DNA of 64,000 nucleotides from Dyella nitratireducens (GTDB lineage: Bacteria > Pseudomonadota > Gammaproteobacteria > Xanthomonadales > Rhodanobacteraceae). Positions within the stretch are counted from its first letter, which is position 1. Each line of letters starts with the position of its first letter. Below the pieces are notes generated by a model, which searched no databases, had not been told where the DNA came from, and was given only the letters and a program-made list of their open reading frames with translations. The DNA lies in contig NZ_BMJA01000003.1 in assembly GCF_014642835.1 (NCBI RefSeq), positions 334,497 to 398,496 of the forward strand, given 5' to 3'. This document shows, in pieces, positions 35,343 to 58,083 of this stretch. Position numbers and translations under genes: made by a program.

Positions 35343-36518
35343 ATGAGTTACCGCGCGCTTATTTCATGCGTCATCGCCATGCTTTCTTCTGCAGTCGCCT
35401 TGATCTTCCTCTACCACCGCGCCGAATCGATCGGATTGGTAGACAAACCGAGCGACCGGAAGAAACACGTGGGCAACATTCCCCTTATAGGCGGTCTCTC
35501 CGCACTGTTCGGCGTCATCGCCGGCATGTGTTTCGAAGGTGAGTCCCTGTTATTTACCAACGCGCTGCTTGGCACTGGCGCTGTACTTGCGCTGACCGGT
35601 GCACTGGACGACCGTTTCGACCTGAGTGTGCGCAGCCGCTTACTGGTGCAGGCGGCGGCCGTCATCACGATGGTGTATTGCACGCACACCTATATACACA
35701 CGCTTGGCCATCTGTTTGGCTACAACCTGGAACTCGGTGAGTTCGGCATTCCGCTGACATTGCTCGCCGTGATAGGCCTGCTCAACGCTTTCAACATGAT
35801 GGATGGCATCGATGGCTTGGCCGGTATGTTGACGCTGGTCAGCATTGGCGCCATCAGCGTATTCCAGGGCGTTTCGCAATGGCACAGCATCATCCTGTTG
35901 CTGTTGCTTGCAGCGGCGTTGCTGCCCGACCTGGCCGCCAATCTTGACCTGATCGGACGCAAGGTATTTCTGGGTGACGCCGGCAGCATGATGATCGGCT
36001 ATTTCCTGGCGTGGACGCTCATCCAGCTCAGCCAGCAGCCGCAGCCGCACCTGTCGACCGTCGACGTGCTGTGGTGCGTCGCGCTGCCGGTGCTTGACAC
36101 CTTGCAAGTCATGCTCCGGCGCATGCGCGAGGGCAAATCGCCCTTCAAGCCCGACCGCGGCCACATCCACCACGTCATGATGAATGCCGGTTTCAGTGCA
36201 CACACCACGCTGGTGCTGCTGGTGGGATTGGCGATGGCGCTGGTGTACGTGGGTACGCTGACGCGCCATCTCACACCAGGCAGCAATCTGCTGGCCTTTA
36301 CTTCCGTCGCGGCAATCTATGTTGTCTTGCTGGGCAGGATCTACCGTGTACAGCAGGCCAGCAAGGCCATGGTCGCCACCGCTGCCGCGCGGACGATCGG
36401 TACACAAAGGCTGTCGCTCGCCACGCCGCTCCAGCCCACCACCGTGGGGCCTTATCAGGAGCATGAAAACGAAACCCATCAGGAAAACGTGGACTCGTCG
36501 GAGCAGCAGCAGGCTTGA
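35343..36518 (+). CDS. WecA/MraY-type undecaprenyl-phosphate sugar-1-phosphate transferase
   Basis: 391-residue polytopic membrane protein that would start repeat-unit assembly by moving a HexNAc-1-phosphate to undecaprenyl phosphate. PNPT motifs are in order: KHVGNIPLIGGLS, the metal-binding DD in GALDDRFDLS (D89, D90), NAFNMMDGIDGLAG (149-160), FLGDAGSM (209-216) and the HIHH motif at 274-277. About ten hydrophobic segments and a Gln/Glu-rich cytoplasmic tail. ATG at 35343 has GGGAG 6 nt upstream; the longer TTG form at 35331 is rejected. First gene of the exopolysaccharide operon. Confidence 0.92.
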   Translation: MSYRALISCVIAMLSSAVALIFLYHRAESIGLVDKPSDRKKHVGNIPLIGGLSALFGVIAGMCFEGESLLFTNALLGTGAVLALTGALDDRFDLSVRSRLLVQAAAVITMVYCTHTYIHTLGHLFGYNLELGEFGIPLTLLAVIGLLNAFNMMDGIDGLAGMLTLVSIGAISVFQGVSQWHSIILLLLLAAALLPDLAANLDLIGRKVFLGDAGSMMIGYFLAWTLIQLSQQPQPHLSTVDVLWCVALPVLDTLQVMLRRMREGKSPFKPDRGHIHHVMMNAGFSAHTTLVLLVGLAMALVYVGTLTRHLTPGSNLLAFTSVAAIYVVLLGRIYRVQQASKAMVATAAARTIGTQRLSLATPLQPTTVGPYQEHENETHQENVDSSEQQQA

Positions 36519-36566: not shown

Positions 36567-37502
36567 ATGCAACTGGTTACCACGGATCGAGCAGGCACGA
36601 CACTCAGAACTTCGCAGCTATCAGCCGTCGAGGTGGCAGGCTTTGATGGCATCGGGGACAGCTCAGTCATTCCCGATGCCGCTCCGGTAAGCGCGATCAT
36701 TCCTTGCTATCGCTGTGCACACACCATTGGCCAGGCGGTAGCTTCGATCGCGGCGCAGGTAACACGCCCTGCCGAAGTATTGCTGGTCGACGATGGCAGC
36801 GGCGACGGCACGCTGCAGCAACTGGAGGAGATTGCGCGGAGCTACCCTTGCGGCTGGATCAAGGTGATCGCGCTGTCGCGCAATGCCGGCCCGTCTGCCG
36901 CACGCAATCACGGCTGGGACCGTGCCCGGCAACGATGGATCGCATTTCTCGACGCCGACGACACCTGGCATCCGGAAAAGCTGAAGCTGCAGATGAACGC
37001 GCTGGAGAAAGACCCGGCCATCGCGCTGATTGCGCACGCCATGAACGTGCAGTCTCGTTCCGCGCAAGCACCTGCATTGCGGCATCCCGTGCGGGTGCGG
37101 GTGCTCGCACGCCATCTTCTGATGCTGCGCCATCCGTTTCCGACCGCATCGATCGTACTGCGCCGTGACCTGCCCTTCCGCTTTGACGAAACGCGCATGC
37201 GCGCAGAAGACTTCATGCTGTGGGCACAGATTCTGTTGTCCGGCTATCGCTGCGCGACGATCAACCAGGTGCTGGCTTCCTACCATAAGCGCCCCTTTGG
37301 CGTCGGCGGACTCAGTGGTGATCTGGAAGCGATGTACACGGCCGCCAACGACGTTCGCCGCAGTTTGTACGAGCAGGGTTTGCTGGGCTGGTGGCAATGG
37401 CAAGTGCTCGAAGCGATGGCGTCGGTGCGCCACCTGCGGCGGCGCGTACTCACCTCCACCCGCCATCAGCAAGGCGCGCTACCCAACCAGCATGGCGCTT
37501 GA
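36567..37502 (+). CDS. GT2 family glycosyltransferase
   Basis: 311 residues, GT-A fold, cytoplasmic face of the membrane. Seen: VSAIIPCYRCAHTIGQAVASI, VLLVDDGSGDGT (nucleotide binding), NAGPSAARNHGW, FLDADDTW (DxD-like metal motif) and MRAEDFMLWAQILL (ED catalytic base region). It is a paralogue of the protein at 43038 and shares with it VSxxIPCYRCxHTIGxAVAS and the ending of the catalytic domain. Donor and acceptor sugars unknown. It starts 48 nt after the initiating transferase. Confidence 0.9.
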   Translation: MQLVTTDRAGTTLRTSQLSAVEVAGFDGIGDSSVIPDAAPVSAIIPCYRCAHTIGQAVASIAAQVTRPAEVLLVDDGSGDGTLQQLEEIARSYPCGWIKVIALSRNAGPSAARNHGWDRARQRWIAFLDADDTWHPEKLKLQMNALEKDPAIALIAHAMNVQSRSAQAPALRHPVRVRVLARHLLMLRHPFPTASIVLRRDLPFRFDETRMRAEDFMLWAQILLSGYRCATINQVLASYHKRPFGVGGLSGDLEAMYTAANDVRRSLYEQGLLGWWQWQVLEAMASVRHLRRRVLTSTRHQQGALPNQHGA

Positions 37503-37514
37503 GCATTGAAAACC

Positions 37515-38576
37515 ATGACAACCTCTACAGCACCCTACGTCGGATACTCCCGCTCATCCAACATCTCCACCAATGCGCGGCTGATGTTGACCTTGATGCT
37601 GCTGGTACCCGTGTTTCTATTTGCCGATGTACTGGTGGGGATCCGCGGCATTGATGTCGGCACCGACACCTATGTTTATGCGATGGTCTTCCACGAATTG
37701 GGCAGCAGCGCTTCGGCGGTTACGCGCTTCGAGCCTGGCTTTGAACTGGTCACGTACCTGGTAAGCGCGCTCGGCGTGAGCTTGCAGGTATATCAATGTG
37801 TGCTGTTCGGCCTGCTGCTGCTGATGGTGGTGCTGGCATCACGCCGCTATTTCGACTACCTGGGCGGCTCGCACGGCTATATGACTTATCTCTGCGCAGG
37901 CTTGATGTTCCTGTTCCTGTCGCCGATGTTCGTGAATGCCTCCATCAATGCCGTCCGACAAGGCCTGGCGTCGCTGCCGGTGTTCGCCGCCCTGTTGTGT
38001 TTTCATCAGCGCCAATGGCGCGCCTTCTTTATTTATGGCGCCATCGCCACCAGCTTCCACTATTCGTCGCTGCTTTATCTGGCTTTTGCACCGTTGCTGC
38101 TTATCAACCTCAAGTACCTGCGGATCGCAGCCGTGCTTGGCTTCATTGCGTACTGCACCGGCCTCACCATGATCGTGGTGCGCGCGGCCGCTCCCTTTAT
38201 CTACGATGCCGTCATGGATTACAGCCTTGGCGCCAAATACAAATCGGGCGTACGCCTCGATTTCGCCGCGTTTTCGATCTTCTGGTACGCACTCCCGTTC
38301 GTGGTGTCAGGCCTGGTGCGCAAGCCTTTCAGCACGCGCATCAAGGACAGCACGGCCGTCTATCTGGTCATGCTGCTCCCCTTCTTCTTGATTGGCTGGG
38401 GCAATTTCTCCAACCGCTTTCTGCTTTCTGCCTATATGGCGATATCACTGATGGTCGCCGCCATCTTCTTTCATAGCCGTCTATCGATGCTTCGCAATCC
38501 TATTCTGCTACGCGTCGGACTGATCGTGTCCTGCGCCGTTTTCTATTACTACGTATCCAATCAGGTACTCGTATGA
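37515..38576 (+). CDS. EpsG-family polysaccharide polymerase (Wzy-like)
   Basis: 353-residue membrane protein with about ten hydrophobic segments. GIRGIDVGTDTYVYAMVFHE followed by RFEPGFELVTYLVSALG near the N-terminus is the EpsG pattern (G.DT..Y...F, EPGF...), and SFHYSSLLYLAF and NFSNRFLLSAYMAIS complete it. By position and family it would polymerise lipid-linked repeats in the periplasm. ATG at 37515 is used; a TTG at 37506 is also possible. It overlaps the next gene by 4 nt (ATGA). Confidence 0.85.
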   Translation: MTTSTAPYVGYSRSSNISTNARLMLTLMLLVPVFLFADVLVGIRGIDVGTDTYVYAMVFHELGSSASAVTRFEPGFELVTYLVSALGVSLQVYQCVLFGLLLLMVVLASRRYFDYLGGSHGYMTYLCAGLMFLFLSPMFVNASINAVRQGLASLPVFAALLCFHQRQWRAFFIYGAIATSFHYSSLLYLAFAPLLLINLKYLRIAAVLGFIAYCTGLTMIVVRAAAPFIYDAVMDYSLGAKYKSGVRLDFAAFSIFWYALPFVVSGLVRKPFSTRIKDSTAVYLVMLLPFFLIGWGNFSNRFLLSAYMAISLMVAAIFFHSRLSMLRNPILLRVGLIVSCAVFYYYVSNQVLV

Positions 38577-40066
38577 ATGCATCGCTGCGAAAATATCCGG
38601 ACATACCTCCCACGATGGGCCGCGGTATCCAGATCAACACGTCGCCCAACGATGCCGTATGGGACTTCTCGCCACTTGCCGGCCACGCCCGGGATCTTGC
38701 ATCGATCGATCTGGTGTCGATCGCCGACATTCTCCGCAATGGCTTCGTGTACGAGCCGCACACCATCTATAAAGACGTAAAAATCGCCGCGACCGGTTTC
38801 GATCCGTCACACGACATGTTCGACAATCCGCGCTTCCACTACCTTTTCCAACCCGTTTTGGCAGCGGCGCGCCCACCGGTCGATGCGGTTCATGGCGATA
38901 AGTTGCTGGAGACTTACCACAGCCTGCTATGCGATGCCGTCACGCGCACTACGGCAGGCATGCGTGCGCCGTGGCTGCTGCAAAGCGGCGGCAAGGACTC
39001 CACCTCGATGGCGATTGCGGTGGCCGATGTGCGCCCGGACACCACCTGCATCACGTATCTGGGTGGCAAGGAGGAGAACGAGGTGGCCTCGGCGCGTTTC
39101 GTCGCACGCAAGCTGGGTTTGCGCCATGAAGCCCTCGTATGCGATCCGGGCCGCGCCTACGATCGCTACCTGGCCATGCTGCCGCGCATGCCTCTGCTCA
39201 CGGCGGATTTCGCAACCTTGTCGTACGTGGACCTGGCTACCGAAATCAGTCTCCAACAGGGAGACGGGATGATCGACGCTTTGGGATCGGACCAATACTT
39301 TGGCGTCCCGCTGCATCGACAAGACCGCATACTTGCCCTGCTTGCCCGCAGCCTGCACGTACCGCAGCAAGTGTTCCAGTCGCGCCTGGTCAGCCGAAAC
39401 TTCAAACTCTGCGTCGCCCTCGCCACGTTGGAGATGAATGAGTTCGAACGCTATTTCCCTGGTTCGCGCTTCAGCGATACGGAAGTCGATGCCTTGCTGG
39501 GCCAGCCGCTTGCGTCACTGTCTCGCCAGCGGGTGGAAGTCTTCCAGCCTGATCTCGATGCCGCGGGTTCCGCCGAAGCCGTGCGCCGTCTTTCGCTGGT
39601 CATCGGCGAATCCGCCCACCTGGCAAAGGGCATGTATTCGGCCACGGCGAAGTCGCTGCGGCTCGCTTATCCGTATGCCGATCCGCAGTTCCGCGACTGG
39701 GTTTTCAAGGACGTTCCCGATGAACTGCTGATCGGTCCGGGCGGTGTGAACAAGGTGCTGATGCGCCAGTACATCGACCGCTATTTCCACAACTTGCCGT
39801 ACGTCAAGGCCAAAGGCTGTTTCCGCTTCGATCTGCGCGGCCTGGCGCAGCAACGCTTCGAACAGATCTACGATGTCGCACAGCAGATGCAGGCGCTTCT
39901 GCCCGGCGTGCCGCGTTGGCTGGAAACCCATCGCGATCGCCTGGACAACAAGTTCTTCGCATCCAAGTTCTATCTGCTCGCCATGCTTCTGCCGTGGCTG
40001 CAGAGCCGCACGCGGCGCGCATCCGCCGTCGATACACCCCATGGCGCAGAGGCCTTTGCGCCATGA
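38573..40066 (+). CDS. Asparagine-synthetase-like PP-loop protein lacking the glutaminase domain (copy 1)
   Basis: 497 residues. An N-type ATP-pyrophosphatase loop lies in WLLQSGGKDSTSMAIA (SGGKDST, 138-144), followed by TCITYLGGKEENEVASAR and a conserved block DPGRAYDRYLAMLPRMPLL. In AsnB enzymes a class II glutaminase domain starting with a catalytic Cys precedes this region. Here only ~137 residues precede the loop, and SIADILRNGFVYEPHTIYKDVK aligns in style with the AsnB inter-domain linker (..YLL.GYVP.P.TIF.GI.K), so the glutaminase is absent. It probably adenylates a carboxylate and joins it to ammonia or an amine; in this locus a uronic-acid amide is an attractive but unproven product. 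Paralogues: 40161 and 48313. Coupled to the polymerase by an ATGA overlap. Confidence 0.8.
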   Translation: MNASLRKYPDIPPTMGRGIQINTSPNDAVWDFSPLAGHARDLASIDLVSIADILRNGFVYEPHTIYKDVKIAATGFDPSHDMFDNPRFHYLFQPVLAAARPPVDAVHGDKLLETYHSLLCDAVTRTTAGMRAPWLLQSGGKDSTSMAIAVADVRPDTTCITYLGGKEENEVASARFVARKLGLRHEALVCDPGRAYDRYLAMLPRMPLLTADFATLSYVDLATEISLQQGDGMIDALGSDQYFGVPLHRQDRILALLARSLHVPQQVFQSRLVSRNFKLCVALATLEMNEFERYFPGSRFSDTEVDALLGQPLASLSRQRVEVFQPDLDAAGSAEAVRRLSLVIGESAHLAKGMYSATAKSLRLAYPYADPQFRDWVFKDVPDELLIGPGGVNKVLMRQYIDRYFHNLPYVKAKGCFRFDLRGLAQQRFEQIYDVAQQMQALLPGVPRWLETHRDRLDNKFFASKFYLLAMLLPWLQSRTRRASAVDTPHGAEAFAP

Positions 40067-40160
40067 GGCAGCAACATGCCAAGCCTTTGGGCAAAGCCAC
40101 TTGGGACGCTGGCGGGTTCCGGGCAAACATCCGTCTGCACATCACGTTTCCGGTGACCTC

Positions 40161-41660
40161 ATGACTTCCAGCATCACTTCGCAAAAGCGGCCGCATGCTT
40201 CGAGCCGCGCGCGAATCCAGGTCAATGCCTCGCCCTATCAGAGCGCGGTGGATTTCTCACCTCTTGACGAGCTTGAACACGGCAACGCATCGCTGGATCT
40301 GGTGTCGATCGCCGATCTGTTGCGAAACAGCTTCGTGTACCCGCCCCACTCTATCTACCGGAATGTGAAAGTCGCCTTTTCAGGATTCGATCCATCGAAA
40401 GACCTGCACGATCATCCGAGTTTCCATTTTCCATTCGGCTCCACACGCACCAAGTTGCACGCGCCATCCAATGACGCATATAGTGCATCGCTGACGCAAA
40501 CGTATCACCGCTTGCTATGCGATGCGGTGAAACGCTCCCTCTCCGACATGCGCGCGCCGTGGCTGCTGCAAAGCGGCGGCAAGGATTCCACCTCGATGGC
40601 CATCGCCATCGCCGAAACGCGTCCCGATACCACCTGCCTTACGTATCTCGGCGGCACGGAAGAAAACGAAGTGGAATCGGCACGTTCCATCGCCAAGAAA
40701 CTGGGCTTGCGGCATGAAGTGCTGATGTGCGATCCCGGCCGTGCCTACGATCGCTATCTGGCCATGCTGCCGCGCATGCCCCTGCTGACTGCCGATTTCG
40801 CCACCCTGTCGTATGCCGACCTGGCGACCGAGGTACAGCAGCACGGCGGTGACGGCATGGTCGATGCCCTGGGCTCGGATCACTATTTCGGCTCACCGCT
40901 GCACAGCAAGGACCACATGCTGGCGATGCTTTCGCGCAGCCTGCGGCTTCCCTCCAGCGTGTTCCACCTCCCTCTGATCAAGAACAACTTCAAACTCTGC
41001 TTTGCGCTTGCCACGCTGCAGATGAACAAGTTCGAGCGCTATTTTCCCGGCTCGCGCTTCAGCGACGCGGAGGTGGATGCCTTGTACGGCTGGAATATTT
41101 CGGCCAAATCCCGGCAGCGGATGGAAACGTTTCGCGCCGAGATCGCGGCCGCCGATTCGGCCGACGTCGAACGCATCATTGCTTTCACCATCCTCGAATC
41201 ACCCGCCATGGGCAAGGGTATGTACGTAGCCAAGGCGATGTCACTGCGGGTGGTCTATCCGTACTGCAATGCGCCGCTGCGCGACTGGATTCTCCATCAG
41301 GTACCCGACGATCAGGTGGTTGGCGCGGGCGGCGTGAACAAGGTGCTGATACGCCGGCACATCGCCGAGCACTTCAACGAACTGCCGTACGTGAGGACCA
41401 AGGGCTCGTTTCGCTTCGATCTGCGCGGACTGGCGAGACAACGCTTCAACCAGGTCTACGCCTTCGCGCAGCAGACGCGCGCGATCTTGCCCGGCGTACC
41501 GCGCTGGCTGGAAACCCATCGGCATCGGCTCGACAACAAGTATTTCGCTTCCAAGTTCTATCTGCTCGCCGTCACGCTGCCGTGGCTGCTCAGCCGGATG
41601 CCTCTTCACACGCCCAACCGGGGCCGTGAAGTGTCTACCGAGACAACGCTGACATCATGA
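40161..41660 (+). CDS. Asparagine-synthetase-like PP-loop protein lacking the glutaminase domain (copy 2)
   Basis: 499 residues, homologous along its length to copies 1 and 3. SGGKDST sits at 138-144, and TCLTYLGGTEENEVESAR, CDPGRAYDRYLAMLPRMPLLTADFATLSYADLATE, GDGMVDALGSDHYFG and KFERYFPGSRFSDAEVDALYG are all conserved. The longer frame from 39873 overlaps copy 1 and is a shadow; ATG at 40161 aligns with copy 1. The N-terminus again lacks a glutaminase and a Cys2. Its stop overlaps the ATG of the beta-helix gene at 41657, indicating coupled translation. Substrate not known. Confidence 0.8.
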   Translation: MTSSITSQKRPHASSRARIQVNASPYQSAVDFSPLDELEHGNASLDLVSIADLLRNSFVYPPHSIYRNVKVAFSGFDPSKDLHDHPSFHFPFGSTRTKLHAPSNDAYSASLTQTYHRLLCDAVKRSLSDMRAPWLLQSGGKDSTSMAIAIAETRPDTTCLTYLGGTEENEVESARSIAKKLGLRHEVLMCDPGRAYDRYLAMLPRMPLLTADFATLSYADLATEVQQHGGDGMVDALGSDHYFGSPLHSKDHMLAMLSRSLRLPSSVFHLPLIKNNFKLCFALATLQMNKFERYFPGSRFSDAEVDALYGWNISAKSRQRMETFRAEIAAADSADVERIIAFTILESPAMGKGMYVAKAMSLRVVYPYCNAPLRDWILHQVPDDQVVGAGGVNKVLIRRHIAEHFNELPYVRTKGSFRFDLRGLARQRFNQVYAFAQQTRAILPGVPRWLETHRHRLDNKYFASKFYLLAVTLPWLLSRMPLHTPNRGREVSTETTLTS

Positions 41661-42796
41661 TGCATAACATCGCTCTCCCACGCACCAGTACTCTACGCCG
41701 CGGCCCCCTACGCATTTCGCTGCTGGCATTGCCTCTTATCGCGCTGTACGCATGGAGTCCTTTCGGCTACGCCAAGACACAGCAGAACACCGGCAGCACC
41801 GTGATCAGTGTTCGCGACAAAGGCGCCAAGGGCGATGGCGTCCACGACGATACCGCCGCCTTCCAGTCAGCCATCGACAACCTGCCATCCAGCGGTGGCA
41901 CCGTCACCGTGCCATCAGGCAACTATGTGATCGATGCGATGCGCGCGATAAACCTGCGTTCCAACATGGTGTTCCAGATGGCCCCGGATGCCACGCTCAC
42001 TGCCATCGCCAACAGCTCACCGCGCTCGCACGTCATCAAGGTGTGGAACGTCAGCAATGTGACCATCACCGGCGGACGTATCGTCGGGGAACGGGAGGGG
42101 CATACGGGCATAGGCGGCGAATGGGGATATGGCATCAATATCGAGTCCTCCCATCACGTTCGTGTCTCCAACATGCACCTCTCCGGTTGCTGGGGCGATG
42201 GCATGTGGATCGGCGCTCTCGGCCCCAATGGCCACGCCAAACCCTCGACCGATGTGGTCGTCGACAACATCGTATCCACCGGCAATCGGCGTCAGGGACT
42301 TTCCATCGGTCCTGTTGACGGCGTCACCATCACCAACTCCACCTTCAGCAACAGCCATGGCACCAAGCCGGAAGCAGGCATCGACATCGAACCTCAAGAG
42401 CAAGGTCCTGCAAGCAACATCACCATCGATCACTGCACCGTCACCGGCAACCACGGCACCGGCATGGAGATTCATGACTACGTCAGCCACGTCACGGTGA
42501 AGAACTCCAGTTTCACGGGCAACAACGGCTATGGTTTGCTGACCGTGGACGGCGCCACACAAGTCACCGTCGTCAACAACACGATGACCGACAACGGCCT
42601 GGTTGGGCTCGCCATCTTAGGCCGCAGCAACCAGGTTCAGGCCACCAACAATACGTTGGGCAACAACAGCACGCGCTATCCGTTGCAGCAAAATTCCGCA
42701 CTCGCCAGGTCCAGCAGTTTCATGCAAAGCCGGCAAATGCAGGTGGATACAACCACCCGCGAAATCACCACTTCCGGCAATACGTATTCGCAATAA
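41657..42796 (+). CDS. Exported right-handed beta-helix protein in the exopolysaccharide operon
   Basis: 379 residues. An N-terminal hydrophobic segment (about 18-36, ISLLALPLIALYAWSPFGYA) is a Sec signal or anchor. Then STVISVRDKGAKGDGVHDDTAAFQSAI and SGGTVTVPSGNYVID, the pectate-lyase-3/epimerase-type start, followed by repeated coils (NVTITGG, GVTITNSTF, HVTVKNSSF, QVTVVNNTM). The shared core WGDGMWIG...NRRQGLSIG...AGIDIEPQ is common to all four beta-helix proteins of the window. Likely periplasmic polysaccharide lyase, hydrolase or epimerase, or a binding scaffold; catalytic residues cannot be assigned by eye. Overlaps the preceding synthetase-like gene. Confidence 0.85.
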   Translation: MMHNIALPRTSTLRRGPLRISLLALPLIALYAWSPFGYAKTQQNTGSTVISVRDKGAKGDGVHDDTAAFQSAIDNLPSSGGTVTVPSGNYVIDAMRAINLRSNMVFQMAPDATLTAIANSSPRSHVIKVWNVSNVTITGGRIVGEREGHTGIGGEWGYGINIESSHHVRVSNMHLSGCWGDGMWIGALGPNGHAKPSTDVVVDNIVSTGNRRQGLSIGPVDGVTITNSTFSNSHGTKPEAGIDIEPQEQGPASNITIDHCTVTGNHGTGMEIHDYVSHVTVKNSSFTGNNGYGLLTVDGATQVTVVNNTMTDNGLVGLAILGRSNQVQATNNTLGNNSTRYPLQQNSALARSSSFMQSRQMQVDTTTREITTSGNTYSQ

Positions 42797-43037
42797 ACCC
42801 GTCACGATGCGCATGCGCCGGCACAACGAAACCTGCACGATCCATGCACATCGCAACACGCACTCTTGTTTCACATCTTGCTGACCGTCGGAGTCAAGCG
42901 TGCAACCGATACGCGAGACTCTTTTGAAAGTCACAACGTCCTGATGCTGGACAACAAGGCCTGCTTAACACACTAGCAGCACCCATGCAGCATCGACGAG
43001 CCGGTCGCGGACAACGCCATCAGGAGCACCGTTGACA

Positions 43038-43964
43038 ATGCATCGAACAAGCCATGCGCAACCCTCGGCATCATCGGCAACCACTGCCGACGGTCGCCGC
43101 GAAAACCATGCCGTCCAGGTGGGCGACATAGCGCCGGTGAGCGTGGTGATACCGTGTTACCGCTGTGTGCACACCATCGGACACGCCGTAGCGTCGGTCG
43201 CTGCACAGACGGTACGTCCCGCCGAGGTGCTGCTGGTGGAAGATGGCAGCGGCGATGGCACGCTGGAAGAATTGCATCGCGTCGCCGGCATCTATCCGCC
43301 CGGTTGGGTGAAAGTGATGGCCATGCCGCGCAACAGTGGGCCATCGGCAGCGCGCAATCGCGGTTGGCAGCATGCCGTTCAACCGTGGGTAGCCTTTCTG
43401 GATGCAGACGACAGCTGGCATCCGCAGAAACTCAAACTGCAGATGGAAGCATTGGCCGAGGATACGCAGGCCGTGCTGATCGCTCATGACATGAATGAGC
43501 AGACGCGTACCATGCCACCGCCACCGCTGAATTATCCCGTGTCGGCGACGCAGGTAACTGCCTATCGCCTGTTTCTGTTGCGTACTCAATTTCCCACGGC
43601 CTCGATCATCTTGCGCCGCGACCTGCCCTTCCGCTTCGACGAAACACGCCGGCTCGCGGAAGATCTTCTTTTGTGGGCGCAGATCCTGCTGTCCGGCCAT
43701 CGCTGCATACGACTCAATCAGGTACTGGCTTCGTACCACAAGGCACCGTATGGCGCAGGCGGACTCAGCAGAAGTCTGATCGCCATGAACAAGGCGGTCG
43801 TGGAAGTACGCAGGGAACTGCACCAGCAGGGGCTGCTCAACTGGTGGCTTTGGCGGCTTGCCGATGCGGTGGGCCTGCTGCGCTACTTGCGCCGCTGGGC
43901 GATCACCCTCAGGCGTCGTCGCGATGACGTGATGCTTGCGCAGAGCAACGAAGCATCGTCGTGA
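43038..43964 (+). CDS. GT2 family glycosyltransferase (paralogue of 36567)
   Basis: 308 residues, GT-A fold. VSVVIPCYRCVHTIGHAVASVAAQ, VLLVEDGSGDGTLEEL, NSGPSAARNRGWQ, FLDADDSWHP and RRLAEDLLLWAQILLSGHR match the copy at 36567 closely, including the ~30-residue low-complexity N-terminal extension. ATG at 43038 follows AGGAG by 11 nt; TTG at 43032 lies 5 nt from it and is a fair alternative. It sits 241 bp after the beta-helix gene, at the start of a second, similar run of genes. Sugars unknown. Confidence 0.9.
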   Translation: MHRTSHAQPSASSATTADGRRENHAVQVGDIAPVSVVIPCYRCVHTIGHAVASVAAQTVRPAEVLLVEDGSGDGTLEELHRVAGIYPPGWVKVMAMPRNSGPSAARNRGWQHAVQPWVAFLDADDSWHPQKLKLQMEALAEDTQAVLIAHDMNEQTRTMPPPPLNYPVSATQVTAYRLFLLRTQFPTASIILRRDLPFRFDETRRLAEDLLLWAQILLSGHRCIRLNQVLASYHKAPYGAGGLSRSLIAMNKAVVEVRRELHQQGLLNWWLWRLADAVGLLRYLRRWAITLRRRRDDVMLAQSNEASS

Positions 43965-44115
43965 TCCATGCCGCCATCCCGCACGTCATGCATAGCAAGG
44001 CATTCCAGCATTCGATATCCCCCGCACGTTGCAGCTTGCTTCGCCGCGAACAGCTGGCCTTGCCCTATTTCATCCATGACCATCTCACGTAATGAACTAA
44101 TCACGGATGCACTCC

Positions 44116-45285
44116 ATGAAACTCATCTTCTTCGCCAACACCGACTGGTATCTCTATAACTTCTGCGTTTCCACCGCGGTGCGGTTGCGCAAGGACGGAC
44201 ATGAGGTCGTCATGCTCTCTCCGCCCGGCCCGTTCGGCGACCGTTTCGCTGCGCATGGATTCCGCTGGATACAGCTGTCGATGGACCGCGCCAGCCTCAA
44301 CCCGCTGCGTGAAGCGGCGACACTCAGCCGACTGGTCGCCATACTGAGGAAAGAGCAGCCGGACCTGCTGCACAACTACACGATGAAGTGCGTCGTCTAT
44401 GGCGCGTTGACCGCACGCATTGCGCGCGTTCCGGCTGTCGTCAATGCCGTGGCTGGCATGGGCTATGTCTTTACCAGCGATGCACTCAAAGCTCGCATGT
44501 TGCGCCCGCTGGTGAAGACGCTGATGCGCATGACCTTGAACGATCATCGCTCGCTTCTCATTCTGCAAAATCCGGACGATGTCATGGCGTTTACCGATGC
44601 CGACCTGATATTGCCGGACCGGATTCGACTCATTCGCGGCACCGGGGTCGACACCATGGTTTTCCAGCCCGCCGTACCCCCGCTCCACCGCGATGGCCGC
44701 CTGCGCGTGCTGCTTGCAGCCCGCTTGCTGTGGGAAAAAGGTATCCAGGAGTTTGCCGACGCCGCGGCGCTATTGCGCCAGTGGGGGCACGATGTGGAAT
44801 GCCTGCTCGCCGGCTCGCCGGATCCTGGCAATCCGCACTCCGTACCACAAGAGCAGGTTCGCCAATGGGTCGATCAAGGCCTTATCCGCTGGCTGGGCCA
44901 CGTCGACGATATGCCCGGCTTGCTCAATACCGTGCATGTGATGGTGCTGCCGAGCTATTACCGCGAGGGCGTACCGAAATCGTTGCTCGAAGGCGCTGCA
45001 AGCGGGCTGGCACTGATCACCACCGATCGGCCGGGCTGCCGCGAAGTGGTGAGCAAGGACGGCGTGGATGGTTTGCACGCGGAAGCGCAGAGTGCGCTGT
45101 CCCTGGCCAAGTGCATCGCACGGTTGGATGGCGACCGCGGACTGCTCGAACAACTCAGCGTGCGTGCACGGCAGAAAGTACTGAGGGAATTCGACGAACG
45201 CGCGGTGATTCAAAAAACCATCGACGTGTACGGAGAACTGACGGCCCCGTATGCGGACGCTTCGGCGTCGCGCAGCACGTCGTGA
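44116..45285 (+). CDS. GT4 family glycosyltransferase (copy 1)
   Basis: 389 residues, GT-B fold. MKLIFFANTDWYLYNFCVSTA at the start, GTGVDTMVFQP in the linker, LLAARLLWEKGIQEF, and the C-terminal EGVPKSLLEGAASGLALITTDRPGCREVV (E-x7-E-type donor site) define it. It is strongly similar along its length to the protein at 46842, which begins directly with MKFIFFAN; I therefore prefer the ATG at 44116 over that at 44107. Similar GT4 enzymes add GalNAc or Gal to lipid-linked sugars; specificity here is unknown. A strong hairpin follows. Confidence 0.9.
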   Translation: MKLIFFANTDWYLYNFCVSTAVRLRKDGHEVVMLSPPGPFGDRFAAHGFRWIQLSMDRASLNPLREAATLSRLVAILRKEQPDLLHNYTMKCVVYGALTARIARVPAVVNAVAGMGYVFTSDALKARMLRPLVKTLMRMTLNDHRSLLILQNPDDVMAFTDADLILPDRIRLIRGTGVDTMVFQPAVPPLHRDGRLRVLLAARLLWEKGIQEFADAAALLRQWGHDVECLLAGSPDPGNPHSVPQEQVRQWVDQGLIRWLGHVDDMPGLLNTVHVMVLPSYYREGVPKSLLEGAASGLALITTDRPGCREVVSKDGVDGLHAEAQSALSLAKCIARLDGDRGLLEQLSVRARQKVLREFDERAVIQKTIDVYGELTAPYADASASRSTS

Positions 45286-45302
45286 TGTCGATATTTGCGG
45301 TA

Positions 45303-45344
45303 CATAAACGACCGGCATGACCAACCCGGTCGTTTATGCGTTTT
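45303..45344 (+). terminator. Terminator-like hairpin after the first GT4 gene
   Basis: A perfect 13-bp stem CATAAACGACCGG / CCGGTCGTTTATG with a 10-nt loop, followed by CGTTTT. It lies 17 bp after the stop and probably ends the 35343-45285 transcription unit. Confidence 0.75.
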
Positions 45345-45584
45345 CCATCGCCGGGCCTGTCACCCCGGCGCGCTGACTGTTGGGGCATAAACCCCGGCAC
45401 GGGAGTGTATACGTGCGTGTAAGGGCGGAGTTTGCACTCCAACACTCATCCGGCTTCGCGGCAAACGCCACGCTCAAAGTCGAACGTAGCCATAGCTCGC
45501 AACCAAGCGGGAATGATGGCCGCGAACGTAAGCGCGCGTTCATCGCAACGCTCGCTTCTCAGGCATCGCAAGACGCTTCGTATA

Positions 45585-45657
45585 CACACGTGACGAAAAA
45601 AGCGCTGTTTGCGCACGCATCGTTTACGTCCACACGACAAGCTGGCGGGCCTAATGA
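45585..45657 (+). promoter_or_regulatory. Upstream block of galE shared with wza
   Basis: CACACGTGACGAAAAAA (45585-45601) is identical to 58084-58100 upstream of wza. Beyond it, ACGCATCGTTTACG (45615-45628) matches ACGCATCGTTGACG (58115-58128) and CTAATGA (45651-45657) matches TTAATAA (58151-58157), at offsets that differ by only 1 bp. The last element could be a -10 box; no good -35 lies at 17 bp, so an activator is likely. The rest of the 45345-45803 gap shows nothing recognisable. Confidence 0.65.
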
Positions 45658-45803
45658 ATGCTGTCTTCTGGCTTACTACCCTGCGCAACGGGGAACGAAG
45701 CGGAATTTCGCGTCACCTGGACATGCTGTTGATCAGTTAATCACATCGTCGCTGCAGGCATCCGGGGCGGCGTTTTTTCTGGCTTCAACCTAGGAATCAA
45801 CGG

Positions 45804-46778
45804 ATGAAGGTTCTCGTTTGCGGCGGGGCTGGCTACATCGGTTCGCACATGGTGCGATGCTTGCTTGCCCATCATCACGAACCCGTCGTGTACGACAACT
45901 TGTCGACCGGGCACCGCGAAGCGGTTGCCGACGTACCGCTGATTGTCGGCGACATTCGCGATTCTGAAACGCTGCGCACGGTCTTTGACCAACATTGCTT
46001 CGATGCGGCGATCCATCTTTGCGCGCATTCGCTGGTTGGCGAATCGATGAACAAACCGTATGAGTACTACCAGAACAACGTTTTCGGAACGCTGTGCCTA
46101 TTGGAAGCGATGCACGAAGCCGATGTCACCAAGCTGGTTTTCTCGTCCACGGCCGCTGTCTTCGGCCACCCGCTCGCCCCGCTTATTGATGAAGAACATG
46201 CCGCTCGCCCGATCAATCCCTACGGAGCCAGCAAATGGATGGTGGAACGCATATTGGCTGACGCTGCACCCGCGTACGGCTTACGTTCGGTGTCGCTGCG
46301 CTACTTCAATGCCGCCGGCGCCGATCCATCCGGTGAAATCGGCGAATCGCATCACCCGGAGACACATTTGATTCCCAACATCTTGCGCTCAGCCTTGGGA
46401 AAAGGCTCGGCGCTGAAGATTTTTGGTGACGATTATCCGACGAAAGACGGTACTTGCGTGCGCGATTACATCCACGTGAATGATTTGGCCGAAGCCCACC
46501 TGCGCGCCATCCGCTTCCTGGACCAGCATGACGGTGCGCATTGCTTCAACCTGGGGAGCAGCAGCGGGTTCACCGTGCTGGAGATCATTGAAGCTGCCAG
46601 ACGTGTCACGGGCATGGATATCAGCTTCGAGCGCGCATCTCGCCGCGCGGGCGATCCGCCGGTGCTTGTGGCATCCAACGTCAAAGCTCGAGTGCAACTG
46701 GGCTGGAGGCCAGCCATCACGAATATCGACGACATTGTGAGAAGCGCCTGGCTTTGGCATAGCCAAGCGCGCTATTGA
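45804..46778 (+). CDS. galE: UDP-glucose 4-epimerase
   Basis: 324 residues, extended SDR fold. Interconverts UDP-Glc and UDP-Gal (or the HexNAc forms), supplying a donor for the exopolysaccharide. NAD-binding GGAGYIGSH (7-15), GDIRD, HLCAHSLVGESMNKPYEYYQNNV, FSSTAAVFG, catalytic YGASK, LRYFNAAGADPSGEIGESHHPETHLIP and DYPTKDGTCVRDYIHVNDLA are typical GalE segments. AGGA lies upstream of the ATG. It has its own conserved upstream block and stands between the two GT4 paralogues. Confidence 0.95.
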   Translation: MKVLVCGGAGYIGSHMVRCLLAHHHEPVVYDNLSTGHREAVADVPLIVGDIRDSETLRTVFDQHCFDAAIHLCAHSLVGESMNKPYEYYQNNVFGTLCLLEAMHEADVTKLVFSSTAAVFGHPLAPLIDEEHAARPINPYGASKWMVERILADAAPAYGLRSVSLRYFNAAGADPSGEIGESHHPETHLIPNILRSALGKGSALKIFGDDYPTKDGTCVRDYIHVNDLAEAHLRAIRFLDQHDGAHCFNLGSSSGFTVLEIIEAARRVTGMDISFERASRRAGDPPVLVASNVKARVQLGWRPAITNIDDIVRSAWLWHSQARY

Positions 46779-46841
46779 CCGCGTTTTAAAGCGGTATACG
46801 GCCAGGAAGGTGAAAACAATATCCATAACAGACGCCATCCA

Positions 46842-48014
46842 ATGAAATTTATCTTTTTCGCGAACACTACCTGGTATCTCTACAACTTCCGGCTCGCCAC
46901 CGCCTTGCGTCTGCTCGCCGACGGGCACGAAGTCGTCATGCTTTCCCCGTCGGGGAAATTCGGCAAGCGCCTCGTTGAACACGGATGCCGCTGGATCCCT
47001 TTGAACATGGACCGCGCCAGCCTCAATCCATTGCGCGAAGTGGCCACCCTGTCCCGCCTGGTCGGCGTGTTCCGGCGGGAGCGTCCCGACATCGTGCACG
47101 GTTTCACGTTGAAATGCGCGATTTATGGTTCCATCGCCGCCCGCATTGCACGTGTTCCGGGTGTGATCAGCGCGGTATCCGGCATGGGTTACGTCTTCAC
47201 CAGCGATGCACTCAAGGCGCGCATGCTGCGCCCTCTCGTCAAGGGCCTTCTGCGGCTCACTTTGAACGGTGAACGTTCATTGCTGATACTGCAGAACCAT
47301 GACGATGCAATGGCATTTTCAAAGGCCGGCCTGATATCACCGGAAAAAATCCGCGTCATCCTCGGCTCGGGTGTCAATACCTTCCGCTTTCATCCCTCCA
47401 ATCGCACCACCCATCGCCATGAACGCCTGCGAGTACTGCTTGCAGCACGCTTGCTGGAGGAAAAGGGCGTGCGTGAATTCATCGAGGCGGCTGCGATACT
47501 TCGCCAGCAGGAACGCAATATCGAATTTCTACTGGCTGGTTCGCCAGATCCTGGCAATCCGCATTCGATCTCCCGCGCCGAACTGCGGCGGTGGACGGAG
47601 GCCGGCCTGGTGAACTGCCTGGGGCACGTCCACGATATGCCTGCATTGCTCGGCAGCGTGCACGTGCTGGCCTTGCCCAGCTATTACCGTGAAGGGGTGC
47701 CCAAATCATTGATCGAAGGCGCCGCCACCGGCTTGGCGCTGATCACCACCAATCGGCCTGGCTGCCGCGAAGTGGTGACGCAACATGGCGTGGATGGTTT
47801 ATGGGTCGAACCGCGCAACGCTGAAGATCTTGCGGCGTGCATTGCACAACTGGACGACGATCGTGAATGGCTTTCAGAGCTTGGCGACCGCGCACGCGAA
47901 CAGGCATTGAAGAAGTTCGACGAGCGTTTTGTGATCCAACAGACACTCGATGTCTATGCCGAATTGCTTCGCCCTGATGGCAGCCCTGTGGAAGAAGCAC
48001 GGCTGGTACCGTGA
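46842..48014 (+). CDS. GT4 family glycosyltransferase (copy 2)
   Basis: 390 residues, GT-B fold. MKFIFFANTTWYLYNFRLATALRLLADGHEVVMLSP, MDRASLNPLREVATLSRLV, GMGYVFTSDALKARMLRPLVKGLL, GSGVNTFRFHP and SYYREGVPKSLIEGAATGLALITTNRPGCREVV match copy 1 nearly block for block, so the pair arose by duplication around galE. Likely adds a different or repeated sugar of the unit; specificity unknown. It follows galE by 63 bp. Confidence 0.9.
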   Translation: MKFIFFANTTWYLYNFRLATALRLLADGHEVVMLSPSGKFGKRLVEHGCRWIPLNMDRASLNPLREVATLSRLVGVFRRERPDIVHGFTLKCAIYGSIAARIARVPGVISAVSGMGYVFTSDALKARMLRPLVKGLLRLTLNGERSLLILQNHDDAMAFSKAGLISPEKIRVILGSGVNTFRFHPSNRTTHRHERLRVLLAARLLEEKGVREFIEAAAILRQQERNIEFLLAGSPDPGNPHSISRAELRRWTEAGLVNCLGHVHDMPALLGSVHVLALPSYYREGVPKSLIEGAATGLALITTNRPGCREVVTQHGVDGLWVEPRNAEDLAACIAQLDDDREWLSELGDRAREQALKKFDERFVIQQTLDVYAELLRPDGSPVEEARLVP

Positions 48015-48312
48015 TGATTTTCCTGCCATCTCTACACTATCTGCACTATTCCATGGCACTGCAAACACGTTTCCCTTACTAACATGTTTCGGCCACGATC
48101 GCGTGCTGCATGAGTCCGCCATCTGGCCACGTGGTTGTTGGGGTTGAAGGTTTTTTGCAGGCACGTACTGACGTCCGTACGGCGGATGTCAGCCATGACG
48201 GTTGCCAAGGAATTGCCACGGTATCGGCTCATCCGTCGCCACCCTGCCCGGCTGCGCAAGGGATGAATCGTGTCGAGGCGCTTCATCGCTACACTGCCGA
48301 CCAGGATCATGT
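48015..48312 (+). other. Gap before synthetase-like copy 3, with a dyad
   Basis: 298 bp, no gene seen. CTGACGTCCG (48168-48177) and CGGATGTCAG (48183-48192) form a 9/10 inverted repeat with a 5-bp spacer that may be an operator. The reading frame of the next gene is open from 48202, but that part has no homology to copies 1 and 2. Confidence 0.4.
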
Positions 48313-49881
48313 ATGAATACCCCTAGCAAGGAATATCGCGGTACGCACGCTGCTGCCGCACGTCCCGTTGCACCAAGAAAAATCCAGCTCAATACCTCTC
48401 CGAATCTGGGAGAAGTCGATTTCGGTCCATTGGCTAAGCACGAGCGAAACATCGCCGCAATCGACCCGGTATCGGTCGCCGATATTTTGCGCAATGCCTT
48501 TGTCTATCCGCCCCACACCATTTATGCGGATGTGAAGATTGCCGCGACCGGCTTCGATCCGGAGCAGGACATGTATGGCAGTCCGCATTTTCACTATGCG
48601 TTCCATACCGTGAGGGCGGAATCGCGCCCCCTTGCGGACGACGTGGAAGATGATGCGCTGATCGACAGCTACCATCGCCTGCTGTGCCAGGCGATCAAGC
48701 GCGCCACGCTCAACATGCGTGCGCCCTGGCTGCTGCAAAGCGGCGGGAAGGATTCCACCTCCATGGCGATCGCGCTGGCGGACGCACGCCCCGATACGAC
48801 CTGCCTCACCTACCTCGGCGGCAAAGAGGAAGACGAAGTCGCCTCGGCACGCTTCGTGGCGCAGCACCTTGGCCTTCGACATGAAGTGCTGGAGTGTGAT
48901 CCCGGCCGCGCCTACGACCGCTATCTGGCGATGCTGCCTCGCATGCCGCTGCTTTCCGCGGATTTTGCTGCCCTTTCCTATGCCGACCTAGCCACCGAAG
49001 TGGCTCGTCATCATGGCGACGGCATGATCGACGCGCAGTGCGCCGACCAGTATTTCGGCGTGCCATTGCGCCGCCAGGACCATGTCATGAAGCTGCTGGC
49101 ACGCGACCTGCGCTTGCCGCAAAGTTTGTTCACATCGACCCCGGTCAGCCACAGCTTCCCGCTTTGCGTGGCCCTATCCACGCTGCAGATGGATCGCTTC
49201 GAGCGCTACTTCCCTGGTTCACGCTTCAGCGATGCCGAAGTCGACGCCCTGTTCGGCAGCAACATCGCCGCATCGTCCCGACAGCGCATGCAGCTGTTCC
49301 ATGCCGATCTCGCCGAAGCCACGACGCCCGAAGCGCAGCGCCGGCTCGCCCTGGTGATCGGGGAATCGTCCCATCTCGGCAAAGGCATGTATGCGGCGCG
49401 TGCGATGTCGCTGCGATTGGCATATCCCTACGCCGATCCGCAGTTTCGCGATTGGGTCTTCCGCCAAGTGCCGGACGATCGGCTTATCGGCCCGGGCGGG
49501 GTGAGCAAAGTGCTGATGCGCCAGTACATTGCCGAGTGCTTCGAACAGCTGCCGTATCTGAAAGCCAAGGGCAGCTTCCGCTTCGATCTGTGTGGACTGG
49601 CCAGGCAGCGGTTCGATCAGGTCTACGCCTATGCCGATGAGGTGAAGGCCTTGCTGCCCGGTGCGTCACGATGGCTGGGCAAACACCGCAAGCTGATGGA
49701 GAACAAATACTTCGCCTCGAAATTTTATCTACTCGCCGTTGTTTTGCCGTGGTTGTTGAGTCACACCGATGCCCATGCCGACCCATGGGCTGGCCATACA
49801 CCGAATACATCTTCAGGAAGGAGCGCGTGTCATGATCAGTCATTCTCAGCTCAACCCTATTCCGATCTCCGACCTCGGTAG
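48313..49881 (+). CDS. Asparagine-synthetase-like PP-loop protein lacking the glutaminase domain (copy 3)
   Basis: 522 residues. SGGKDST at 143-149 in WLLQSGGKDSTSMAIALADARPDTTCLTYLGGKEEDEV. CDPGRAYDRYLAMLPRMPLLSADFAALSYADLATE and FERYFPGSRFSDAEVDALFG are shared with copies 1 and 2, while GDGMIDAQCADQYFG replaces the LGSD of the others with QCAD. The N-terminus has no glutaminase. ATG at 48313 has AGGA 7 nt upstream. The C-terminal ~35 residues are unique and overlap the following beta-helix gene by 50 nt, the same gene pairing as copy 2 with 41657. Confidence 0.8.
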   Translation: MNTPSKEYRGTHAAAARPVAPRKIQLNTSPNLGEVDFGPLAKHERNIAAIDPVSVADILRNAFVYPPHTIYADVKIAATGFDPEQDMYGSPHFHYAFHTVRAESRPLADDVEDDALIDSYHRLLCQAIKRATLNMRAPWLLQSGGKDSTSMAIALADARPDTTCLTYLGGKEEDEVASARFVAQHLGLRHEVLECDPGRAYDRYLAMLPRMPLLSADFAALSYADLATEVARHHGDGMIDAQCADQYFGVPLRRQDHVMKLLARDLRLPQSLFTSTPVSHSFPLCVALSTLQMDRFERYFPGSRFSDAEVDALFGSNIAASSRQRMQLFHADLAEATTPEAQRRLALVIGESSHLGKGMYAARAMSLRLAYPYADPQFRDWVFRQVPDDRLIGPGGVSKVLMRQYIAECFEQLPYLKAKGSFRFDLCGLARQRFDQVYAYADEVKALLPGASRWLGKHRKLMENKYFASKFYLLAVVLPWLLSHTDAHADPWAGHTPNTSSGRSACHDQSFSAQPYSDLRPR

Positions 49882-51103
49882 CGATGTACGAGGCGGCATC
49901 CTTGCTCCCGTCGTCAACGTGCGTGACATGGGTGCCAAGGGCGACGGCAGGACGGACGATACCGATGCATTCCAAGCCGCCGTGGATGAGGTTCCGGAAA
50001 CGGGCGGCAGCGTCATCGTGCCAAGAGGCGACTATCGGATCGACGCCACCAAGTCGATCGTCCTGCATTCCAACATGCTGCTGATGATGGATCCTGCCGC
50101 GACGCTGGCGGCGATTCCCAACAAGGTGCCGAAATATCGTGTGATCAAGGTATGGAACATTTCCAACGTGCGCATCGTCGGCGGCCGCCTGGTGGGCGAA
50201 CGGCGCCTGCACGTCACAGAAAGCAACACACCGATAGGCGGCGACGAGCAGGGCTTCGGCATCGAAATGCTGAATGCGCACAATGTCATTGTCAGCGACA
50301 TGCACGTGTCTGATTTCTGGGGTGACGGCATCTGGATCGGCGCCCATGCAGGCTGGGACGATGGCACGGGTGGCCCACTCGACGATGTCAGGCCATCGAC
50401 CAACGTGTTGATCAACCGTGTGCACTGCAGCTACAACCGCCGCCAGGGCCTGTCCGTGGGACCCGCGGACAACGTGACGATCATGAATTCCACCTTCAGC
50501 TTTACCGGCCCCACCGCCACCGAGGGCACCAGGCCGATGGCAGGCATCGATCTGGAGCCGCAGCGCCAAGGCTTATTGCGAAATGTTTCCATCAGCCATT
50601 GCATCTTCATGCGCAATCGCGGCTGCGGCATGGAGATTCATGGCAACGTGATCGGTGTTTCGATCGACAATTGCCTGTTCAGCGACAACTTCGGCTACGG
50701 CATCATCACCCATGAAGAAGAAGACATGGAAGAGAAAGAGCTCACGGGCCTCTCCTTCACCAATAACACCGTCAGCCGCAATGGCTTGGTGGGCGCCCTT
50801 TTCACCGGCGAGACTGATTGCCTGCTGCTTGCCAACAACACTTTCGTCAACAATGGCTTCCTCTACCAGGACGGTGATTACGATGGGGACAGAGAGTGGA
50901 TAACGGGGCAGGACATCGTCACCGATACCAAGAGCGGCATGGGAACCATGAACTGGGATGTGGACCCTGAAAAATCGACCGAGCCAGACCTGGTCGTTGT
51001 AAGAAGCACCACCAACGTAAGGCTGAGAGGCAACACGTACACGCGTACTAGCGATCCGGATGATGAGTTTGGCGACAGGCCTGATAAGTGGGATAGACCC
51101 TGA
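49832..51103 (+). CDS. Right-handed beta-helix protein without a signal peptide
   Basis: 423 residues from the ATG at 49832, which has GGAG 8 nt upstream. The fold start is APVVNVRDMGAKGDGRTDDTDAFQAAV and GGSVIVPRGDYRID; FWGDGIWIG, YNRRQGLSVG and MAGIDLEPQRQG match the other three paralogues. Unlike them, the N-terminus (MISHSQLNPIPISDLGSDVRG) has no hydrophobic export signal; extending to 49769 does not add one. A strongly acidic insertion (HEEEDMEEKE) and an Asp-rich C-terminal region are also unique. It may act in the cytoplasm, perhaps on lipid-linked intermediates, or use another export route. Overlaps synthetase-like copy 3. Confidence 0.8.
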   Translation: MISHSQLNPIPISDLGSDVRGGILAPVVNVRDMGAKGDGRTDDTDAFQAAVDEVPETGGSVIVPRGDYRIDATKSIVLHSNMLLMMDPAATLAAIPNKVPKYRVIKVWNISNVRIVGGRLVGERRLHVTESNTPIGGDEQGFGIEMLNAHNVIVSDMHVSDFWGDGIWIGAHAGWDDGTGGPLDDVRPSTNVLINRVHCSYNRRQGLSVGPADNVTIMNSTFSFTGPTATEGTRPMAGIDLEPQRQGLLRNVSISHCIFMRNRGCGMEIHGNVIGVSIDNCLFSDNFGYGIITHEEEDMEEKELTGLSFTNNTVSRNGLVGALFTGETDCLLLANNTFVNNGFLYQDGDYDGDREWITGQDIVTDTKSGMGTMNWDVDPEKSTEPDLVVVRSTTNVRLRGNTYTRTSDPDDEFGDRPDKWDRP

Positions 51104-52093: not shown

Positions 52094-52148
52094 TGTGAAC
52101 GAATGCAGCTTTTCACATTTGCATGTCGTACGTGAATGATCGATCTTA
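52094..52148 (+). promoter_or_regulatory. Conserved upstream block shared with the 10561 beta-helix gene
   Basis: TGTGA (52094-52098), 14 bp, TCACA (52113-52117) within TTTCACATTTGCA (52111-52123), then ACGTGA and ATCTTA (52143-52148). Same order and almost the same spacing as at 10423-10478. The block runs past the first ATG of the annotated reading frame, which makes that ATG doubtful as the true start. Confidence 0.6.
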
Positions 52149-57707: not shown

Positions 57708-58083
57708 GTATAACGACACTCTCCCTGCATGGTTGAACACCAAGACCCGTTTTCATGAGTGCCAAACCTCAACCGTGTGGATGCTCGGGTTCCGTCATCC
57801 CAACGAAAGCCGATGTAACGAAGGGACGCCTGCCGAGATTCGACACAGATCAGCAAACCTTTTGGCAAACCCATGGATCTTCAATTTCATAACAACATGT
57901 TCACGTGCGCTATTCATGGATCTTCATCTTCACACCGAAACCCCGCACAGGTATGCGGTCTCCTCAATCATCATGATGTCGTGTCGATAACGGGTGAACT
58001 TGATGAAGCCAACATATAAACCTGCACGCGTCAAATTTGCATGGATTTTCCCCAACGAAACTCGAACGAAAACATTTCCTGCA
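57708..58083. other. Divergent control region between wzb and wza
   Basis: About 380 bp without a gene, richer in A and T than its flanks. Repeated ATTTGCATGGATTTT / CATGGATCTTCA-like strings near 57870-58040 are the only notable feature. It should hold the wzb promoter on the minus strand. Confidence 0.4.

Follow-up and report, generated by a model that had tools for sequence, protein, structure and literature searches.

In P. gingivalis, the AsnB-type gene wbpS (PGN_1234) is reported to have been found because its deletion abolishes uronamide formation (PMC7468200). The psc1 polysaccharide cluster of Rubrivivax also contains wbpS-named genes, and mutating one of them is reported to have altered aggregation and colony form (PMC3684757). 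The Vibrio polysaccharide (VPS) is reported to bear an amide-linked glycine on C6 of a gulose-type residue, where the enzyme RbmB cuts to leave an unsaturated product (PMC11637428). For SaHAT, a homologue of the hydroxyamidotransferase TsnB9, the ATP-dependent activation of a free carboxyl group is reported (PMC13418202). Here we describe a gene pair from a 64-kb stretch of the 5.68-Mb genome of the soil bacterium Dyella nitratireducens (the window, 64,000 nucleotides in all), which consists of an asparagine-synthetase-like gene (SYN) followed by a right-handed beta-helix gene (BH). The two form the conserved core of a Wzx/Wzy-type exopolysaccharide cluster in Xanthomonadales genera, and three SYN genes lie inside this cluster in the window. 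The parts of the pair are of known kinds; no description of the pairing was found in the literature searched, with most subscription papers beyond the reach of that search. Our preferred reading, to which we assign a probability of roughly one half, is that SYN amidates a carboxylated sugar inside the cell and that an exported BH then acts on the polymer outside, by cleavage or epimerisation, probably on or close to the residue that SYN has modified.

The pairing had been noticed in an earlier note on this DNA, made from its letters alone, and a neighbourhood search had been set beforehand as the check. The linkage does recur outside this genome, across genera of Xanthomonadales. A collection of species genomes was scanned with two short conserved peptides, a method that distant relatives can escape, which returned 54 loci with a SYN relative. 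By record title, these loci belong to Dyella, Rhodanobacter, Frateuria, Lysobacter, Luteimonas, Pseudoxanthomonas, and Vulcaniibacterium, with two titled by order or family alone and one titled Candidatus Eremiobacteraeota. We defined an exopolysaccharide locus as one with at least one core exopolysaccharide gene near SYN and read adjacency from profile-domain coordinates. By this definition 43 of the 54 loci are exopolysaccharide loci, and a BH lies directly 3' of SYN on the same strand in 41 of the 43. In the two exceptions (L093 and L124), the contig edge falls just after or within SYN. The distance from the SYN stop to the start of the BH domain is 72-159 nucleotides (nt) in 40 of the 41 adjacent loci, and 20 of the 41 show a 4-nt overlap between a start codon and the SYN stop. 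At L087, once the domain boundary is corrected, 99 nt separate the stop of the second SYN from the BH domain. The gene order common in Lysobacter, Luteimonas, and Pseudoxanthomonas is phosphatase, WecA, Wzc, SYN, BH, BH, a family 4 glycosyltransferase (GT4), flippase, a family 2 glycosyltransferase (GT2), EpsG, and Wza. The Dyella order is WecA, GT2, EpsG, SYN, SYN, BH, GT4, BH, flippase, and Wzc, and variants occur beside both arrangements. The pairing of SYN with BH is real and conserved. The locus titled Candidatus Eremiobacteraeota (L078) carries a Dyella-type cluster and its genome was placed in the genus of the window, so the title looks mislabelled.

Co-occurrence was examined in 299 genomes of the order. 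SYN was detected in 18 genomes (E ≤ 1e-12), and BH was detected in 19 (E ≤ 1e-40, a threshold chosen to exclude general beta-helices), namely all 18 SYN genomes and G158, where the match is partial and weak (141.6 bits). The EpsG of the cluster (E ≤ 1e-30) was present in 15 genomes, every one among the 18, and in the remaining three (G204, G280, and G286) SYN and BH are present and the cluster's EpsG was not found. SYN and BH are thus retained where this polymerase was not found. In a sample of the phylum, 3 of 398 genomes contained SYN (E ≤ 1e-15), and these 3 belong to Xanthomonadales. It should be noted that these counts ignore kinship and carry no probability, and that the profiles include sequences from some of the sampled genomes. 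The SYN, BH, and EpsG scans requested the same draw of 299 genomes, the sameness being judged from the matching genomes listed, and the gene count for any one genome is a minimum, since at most 5, 4, and 7 candidates per genome were scored in the SYN scan of the order, the SYN scan of the phylum, and the BH scan, respectively.

These data bear on whether SYN and BH act independently within one cluster, with SYN amidating the repeat unit and BH serving as an amide-independent lyase or hydrolase for release or clearing. Polysaccharide clusters often include their own depolymerase. The two proteins are likely to reside in different compartments (see below), additional BH genes occur with no SYN beside them, and RbmB is reported to be such a matrix lyase. 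However, the direct adjacency of SYN and BH in all 41 testable loci suggests a tighter link than cluster membership, as does the retention of both genes in the three genomes where EpsG was not found. Independent action is possible in our view, though on the unlikely side.

The assignment of SYN to the asparagine synthetase superfamily is based on profiles, alignments, and a predicted structure. All three window SYN exceed the PF00733 (Asn_synthase) cut-off of 21 bits (Table 1). In alignment A5, which has 54 rows (51 of the 54 SYN loci and the three window genes, with L075 left out and L122 and L124 partial), the PP-loop residues S138, G139, G140, K141, D142, and S143 are invariant in 54/54 rows. 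A separate alignment, A3, holds 28 of 32 SYN matches; L022, L043, and L047, with stops in the matched stretch, and L046, a 51-residue piece, were left out. When the SYN profile was compared to the genome's own asparagine synthetase, the alignment began at residue 163, which indicates that the glutaminase domain is missing in SYN. In L090, L091, and L092, the Wzc stop lies 5-30 nt upstream of the SYN open reading frame (ORF), which leaves no room for an N-terminal glutaminase domain. SYN2 as modelled by AlphaFold2 (mean pLDDT 88.6) has as its best fold match TsnB9 (7ylz, Z 21.3, 384 aligned residues, root-mean-square deviation (rmsd) 3.8), which differs from SYN in being a natural-product enzyme with a longer chain and 14% identity. 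Further matches include human ASNS (Z 18.9), carbapenam synthetase (Z 18.8), beta-lactam synthetase (Z 17.9), and E. coli AsnB (Z 15.7). The top twelve matches are all of the Asn_synthase superfamily by title (Z 15.7-21.3), the next rows scoring 11.6 or less, and the original description of SYN as a PP-loop synthetase is borne out by these matches.

No NCBIfam model reaches its cut-off on SYN, with TIGR01536 (AsnB) at 23.5-30.3 bits against 267.1 and TIGR03108 (WbpS) at 21.5-25.8 bits against 816.9, and a PDB sequence search with SYN returned QueC alone, weakly. SYN shares the PP-loop SGGxDS with AsnB, whereas AsnB has an N-terminal class II glutaminase domain with Cys1. With WbpS/TIGR03108, SYN has in common the PF00733 synthetase domain, a place among polysaccharide genes, and amide formation as the expected chemistry; SYN differs in having no N-terminal glutaminase domain and an altered GEGxDE motif. 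The identity of SYN as AsnB was rejected on the missing domain, the altered motif, and a score far below the cut-off, and that as a WbpS/TIGR03108 amidotransferase on a score far below the family cut-off. PF02540, a first guess at the family, led nowhere. We infer that SYN is an ATP-dependent amide-forming ligase that uses ammonia or another amine directly.

Two other roles for SYN were considered. The missing glutaminase domain and the altered GEGxDE motif could indicate a degenerate, non-catalytic asparagine-synthetase domain that acts as a scaffold or regulator, but the PP-loop and many further residues are invariant in all 54 rows across several genera, and SYN has been repeatedly duplicated with retention of the copies, which makes this role very improbable. 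Alternatively, SYN could be an N-acylating ligase that joins the amine of an amino sugar to an external carboxylic acid (an amino or hydroxy acid), with BH acting on the product polymer. The fold does include enzymes with unusual acyl and amine partners (TsnB9 and the carbapenam and beta-lactam synthetases), no UDP-sugar dehydrogenase was found in the window, and the initiating enzyme is of the WecA type, which transfers an N-acetylamino sugar. Against N-acylation, the closest biological precedents, the WbpS family, are reported to form uronamides, and we consider it quite unlikely.

The partner of SYN in the preferred reading, BH, was examined in the same manner. The AlphaFold2 model of BH1 (mean pLDDT 88.8) matches AlgE-type mannuronan C5-epimerases (2pyg and 8ja4) over the whole fold, with Z values of 39.1-40.2 and an rmsd of 1.4-1.5 over 294-295 residues. 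The pectate-lyase-3/epimerase fold that had been proposed for BH therefore holds for the predicted model, as an AlgE-type fold with Z ∼40. Other fold matches are phi29 gp12 (Z 37.2) and the V. cholerae lyase RbmB (9ozd, Z 34.5), the latter compared at the level of the fold. RbmB resembles the proposed role of BH in being a biofilm-polysaccharide enzyme that is reported to act at an amide-bearing residue (PMC11637428), although BH is nearer to AlgE by fold score. In alignment A4 (69 rows, from 65 of 81 BH domains and four window genes), the polar residues R146, H149, D181, R211, R212, D243, and E245 are invariant in 69/69 rows.

Export signals were scored with our own heuristic, not a trained predictor, on the 90 of 94 BH domains long enough to include. 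An arginine pair (RR) with a hydrophobic N-terminal stretch was found in 40 of 41 SYN-adjacent BH and in 32 of 49 other BH. With its boundary corrected, the BH of L087 shows ARRAFLRRALALATATLL, which, judged by eye, brings the twin-arginine-like signal to 41/41 SYN-adjacent BH. A hydrophobic N-terminal stretch of any kind occurs in 40/41 SYN-adjacent BH versus 47/49 other BH. These features suggest that SYN-adjacent BH are exported via the twin-arginine (Tat) or Sec route.

The predicted locations shape how the two proteins may cooperate. SYN-adjacent BH bear the RR export signal, and in the window SYN proteins no stretch reaches the hydropathy of a membrane segment (best 19-residue mean 1.10-1.23). 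Membership of one pathway is therefore more likely than assembly into one complex. The suggestion that SYN and BH work as a complex is thus not favored, and a physical SYN-BH complex was rejected on the BH export signal; the two products probably act one after the other, each in a compartment of its own. BH2 of the window, which has no signal, is an exception to this compartment argument. In the preferred pathway, a cytoplasmic SYN with no glutaminase domain of its own would activate a carboxylate with ATP and transfer it to ammonia or another amine, the likeliest acceptor being a repeat-unit sugar with a carboxyl group, uronic or other. The WecA frame of Lysobacter soli carries a UDP-GlcNAc 2-epimerase domain, which is compatible with a ManNAc-derived unit. 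The flippase, the EpsG polymerase, Wzc, and Wza, whose roles are assigned by family, would assemble and export the polymer, which an AlgE-fold BH, exported via Tat or Sec, would cleave or epimerise once it has left the cytoplasm, probably at the modified residue or in its vicinity. Of the earlier proposal, the family and fold parts stand. Its chemistry, amidation of a uronic acid or amine ligation combined with epimerisation or cleavage, is plausible and has precedents in P. gingivalis WbpS and in the glycine-amide sugar of VPS that RbmB cuts.

Several observations weigh against this pathway. Orphan SYN exist, with 11 of the 54 loci having no core exopolysaccharide gene nearby; among these, BH is adjacent to SYN in 0/11 and present in 2/11, and in one of these loci (L084) the sequence stops 266 nt past SYN. 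A UDP-sugar dehydrogenase (PF03721) was not found in the window and three are above cut-off elsewhere in the genome; the cluster thus gives no indication of a uronic acid, although one is possible. The sequence GEGADELFGGY of asparagine synthetase, in which GEGxDE-FGGY is the acceptor-site motif, is replaced in SYN by D235-x4-D240-x-Y242-x-G244, with D235, D240, Y242, and G244 invariant in 54/54 rows, and therefore the substrate or chemistry of SYN may differ from that of asparagine synthetase. DPH[DE], the catalytic signature of AlgE epimerases (GYGFDPHE in AlgE4), occurs in 0/69 BH sequences, on which basis BH as an AlgE epimerase was rejected; BH further differs from these enzymes in its own invariant residue set and its RR export signal. 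The best PDB sequence match of BH is the tail fibre gp22 of phage crAss001 (7qoj, E 3.6e-46), ahead of AlgE4 as the best cellular match (E 2.2e-26), so cleavage by BH is at least as likely as epimerisation. BH and gp22 share WGDG, NRRQG, and AGxDIEP motifs, and all BH invariant residues except R146 recur in their alignment, the last five within the WGDG, NRRQG, and DIEP motifs. Unlike BH, gp22 is a phage tail fibre, and the available part of its description states no catalytic activity (PMC10172136). Lastly, BH2 has neither RR nor a strong hydrophobic N-terminal stretch and thus no evident export signal.

A more specific form of coupling can be envisioned, in which the uronic amide formed by SYN would acidify C5-H and a translationally coupled, Tat-exported BH would eliminate or epimerise at exactly that residue, without the charge neutralisation on which enzymes acting on uronates depend. 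An amide would make C5-H more acidic, as an ester does in the substrates of pectin lyases, which makes the link attractive, although we regard it as speculative and unlikely. If true, the ligase SYN would set the sites at which the polymer is open to cutting or stiffening. More broadly, for a polymer of which no structure report was found, the genomes provide a defined gene pair common to several genera of one order and a testable rule, namely that the exported BH should take what the ligase SYN has made as its substrate. Should the preferred pathway be correct, a glutaminase-free branch of asparagine synthetases would be added to polysaccharide amidation, along with a group of beta-helix enzymes whose own residue set recurs for the most part in a phage tail fibre.

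Within the genome itself, the evidence for linkage must be read with the history of the genes in mind. Three paralogous PP-loop synthetase-like genes beginning at 38573, 40161, and 48313 had been proposed, and each is an open frame from that start and positive for PF00733; SYN2 and SYN3 are 61% and 66% identical to SYN1. The overlaps described between the coding ends are present as well, that of 4 nt between SYN2 and BH1 as ATGA at 41657-41660 and that of 50 nt between SYN3 and BH2 provided that BH2 starts at ATG 49832, which has AGGAAGGAG directly 5' (the mechanical ORF begins at 49769). In total, the genome encodes six SYN and four strong BH, with two of the BH directly 3' of SYN. Three more SYN paralogues lie outside the window, and a search for BH in this genome found none near any of them. 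In trees of 42 rows each, built from 26 of the 54 loci and the genome's own genes after domains had been filtered by length, SYN1 and SYN3 form a clade (support 95/84), and BH2 is placed together with BH1 and SYN-adjacent BH from other Dyella (support 98/84). The branch of BH2 is long (1.17 versus 0.27 for BH1), and the tree tool calls the placement of such a row unsure. The second pair, SYN3-BH2, is most simply a local duplicate and was rejected as independent evidence of linkage. Recurrence at two sites in one genome, from which the earlier note had argued for cooperation, is consequently weak by itself. BH2 keeps the family-invariant residues. It may be a cytoplasmic variant or a gene on its way out.

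The remaining genes of the cluster are listed in Table 1. Profile scans show that the Wzx/Wzy exopolysaccharide set is complete in the window, with initiator, flippase, polymerase, Wzc, Wzb, and Wza. Promoter and terminator scans of the window gave no excess over shuffles (3 versus a mean of 7.7, and 17 versus 16.5, respectively). The NAD-dependent epimerase is presumably GalE-like.

Table 1 Features of the exopolysaccharide cluster and BH paralogues in the window, in window coordinates.
Feature	Coordinates	Strand	Evidence
BH4, lone beta-helix paralogue	10561..11742	+	groups with BH3; N-terminal hydrophobic stretch, no RR; no SYN beside it
WecA/MraY-type phosphoglycosyl transferase, initiating enzyme	35331..36518	+	PF00953, 105 bits; synteny in relatives
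GT2 glycosyltransferase	36567..37502	+	PF00535; similar GT2 directly 5' of some orphan SYN
EpsG-type polymerase	37506..38576	+	PF14897, 111 bits; 4-nt overlap with SYN1
SYN1, asparagine-synthetase-like PP-loop ligase (putative) without glutaminase domain	38573..40066	+	PF00733, 40.9 bits; alignments
SYN2, same family as SYN1	40161..41660	+	PF00733, 40.9 bits; start ATG 40161; AlphaFold2 model
BH1, beta-helix enzyme (putative)	41657..42796	+	PF13229 and PF12708 above cut-off; RR (residue 14) and hydrophobic N-terminal stretch; AlphaFold2 model
Second GT2 glycosyltransferase	43032..43964	+	PF00535
GT4 glycosyltransferase	44107..45285	+	PF13692/PF00534
NAD-dependent epimerase	45804..46778	+	PF01370, 188 bits
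Second GT4 glycosyltransferase	46842..48014	+	PF13692/PF00534
SYN3	48313..49881	+	PF00733, 45.1 bits (scored on the ORF from 48202); groups with SYN1
BH2, strongly diverged copy of SYN-adjacent BH	49832..51103	+	PF13229 and PF12708 above cut-off; tree
BH3, beta-helix of the second (non-adjacent) class	52136..53398	+	RR (residue 46) and hydrophobic N-terminal stretch; no SYN beside it
Wzx-type flippase	53527..54858	-	PF01943, 57 bits
Wzc tyrosine kinase/chain-length regulator	55007..57208	-	PF23607, PF13807, PF02706
Low-molecular-weight phosphotyrosine phosphatase (Wzb-like)	57273..57743	-	PF01451
Wza-type export protein	58187..59341	+	PF02563, PF22461

Further variation was observed around the initiator and the orphan SYN genes. 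In L116 (5093-7588), a single frame of 832 amino acids comprises a WecA-type initiator and a UDP-GlcNAc 2-epimerase domain, and the frames in L092 and L120 are of similar length. In five Dyella genomes, including that of the window (L051, L056, L058, L061, and L066), an orphan SYN directly follows a FAD-monooxygenase-like gene, which we take to resemble kynurenine 3-monooxygenase. An orphan SYN directly follows a GT2 gene in L052, L080, L098, and L111, and in L098 and L111 BH genes lie upstream of the orphan SYN in non-adjacent positions.

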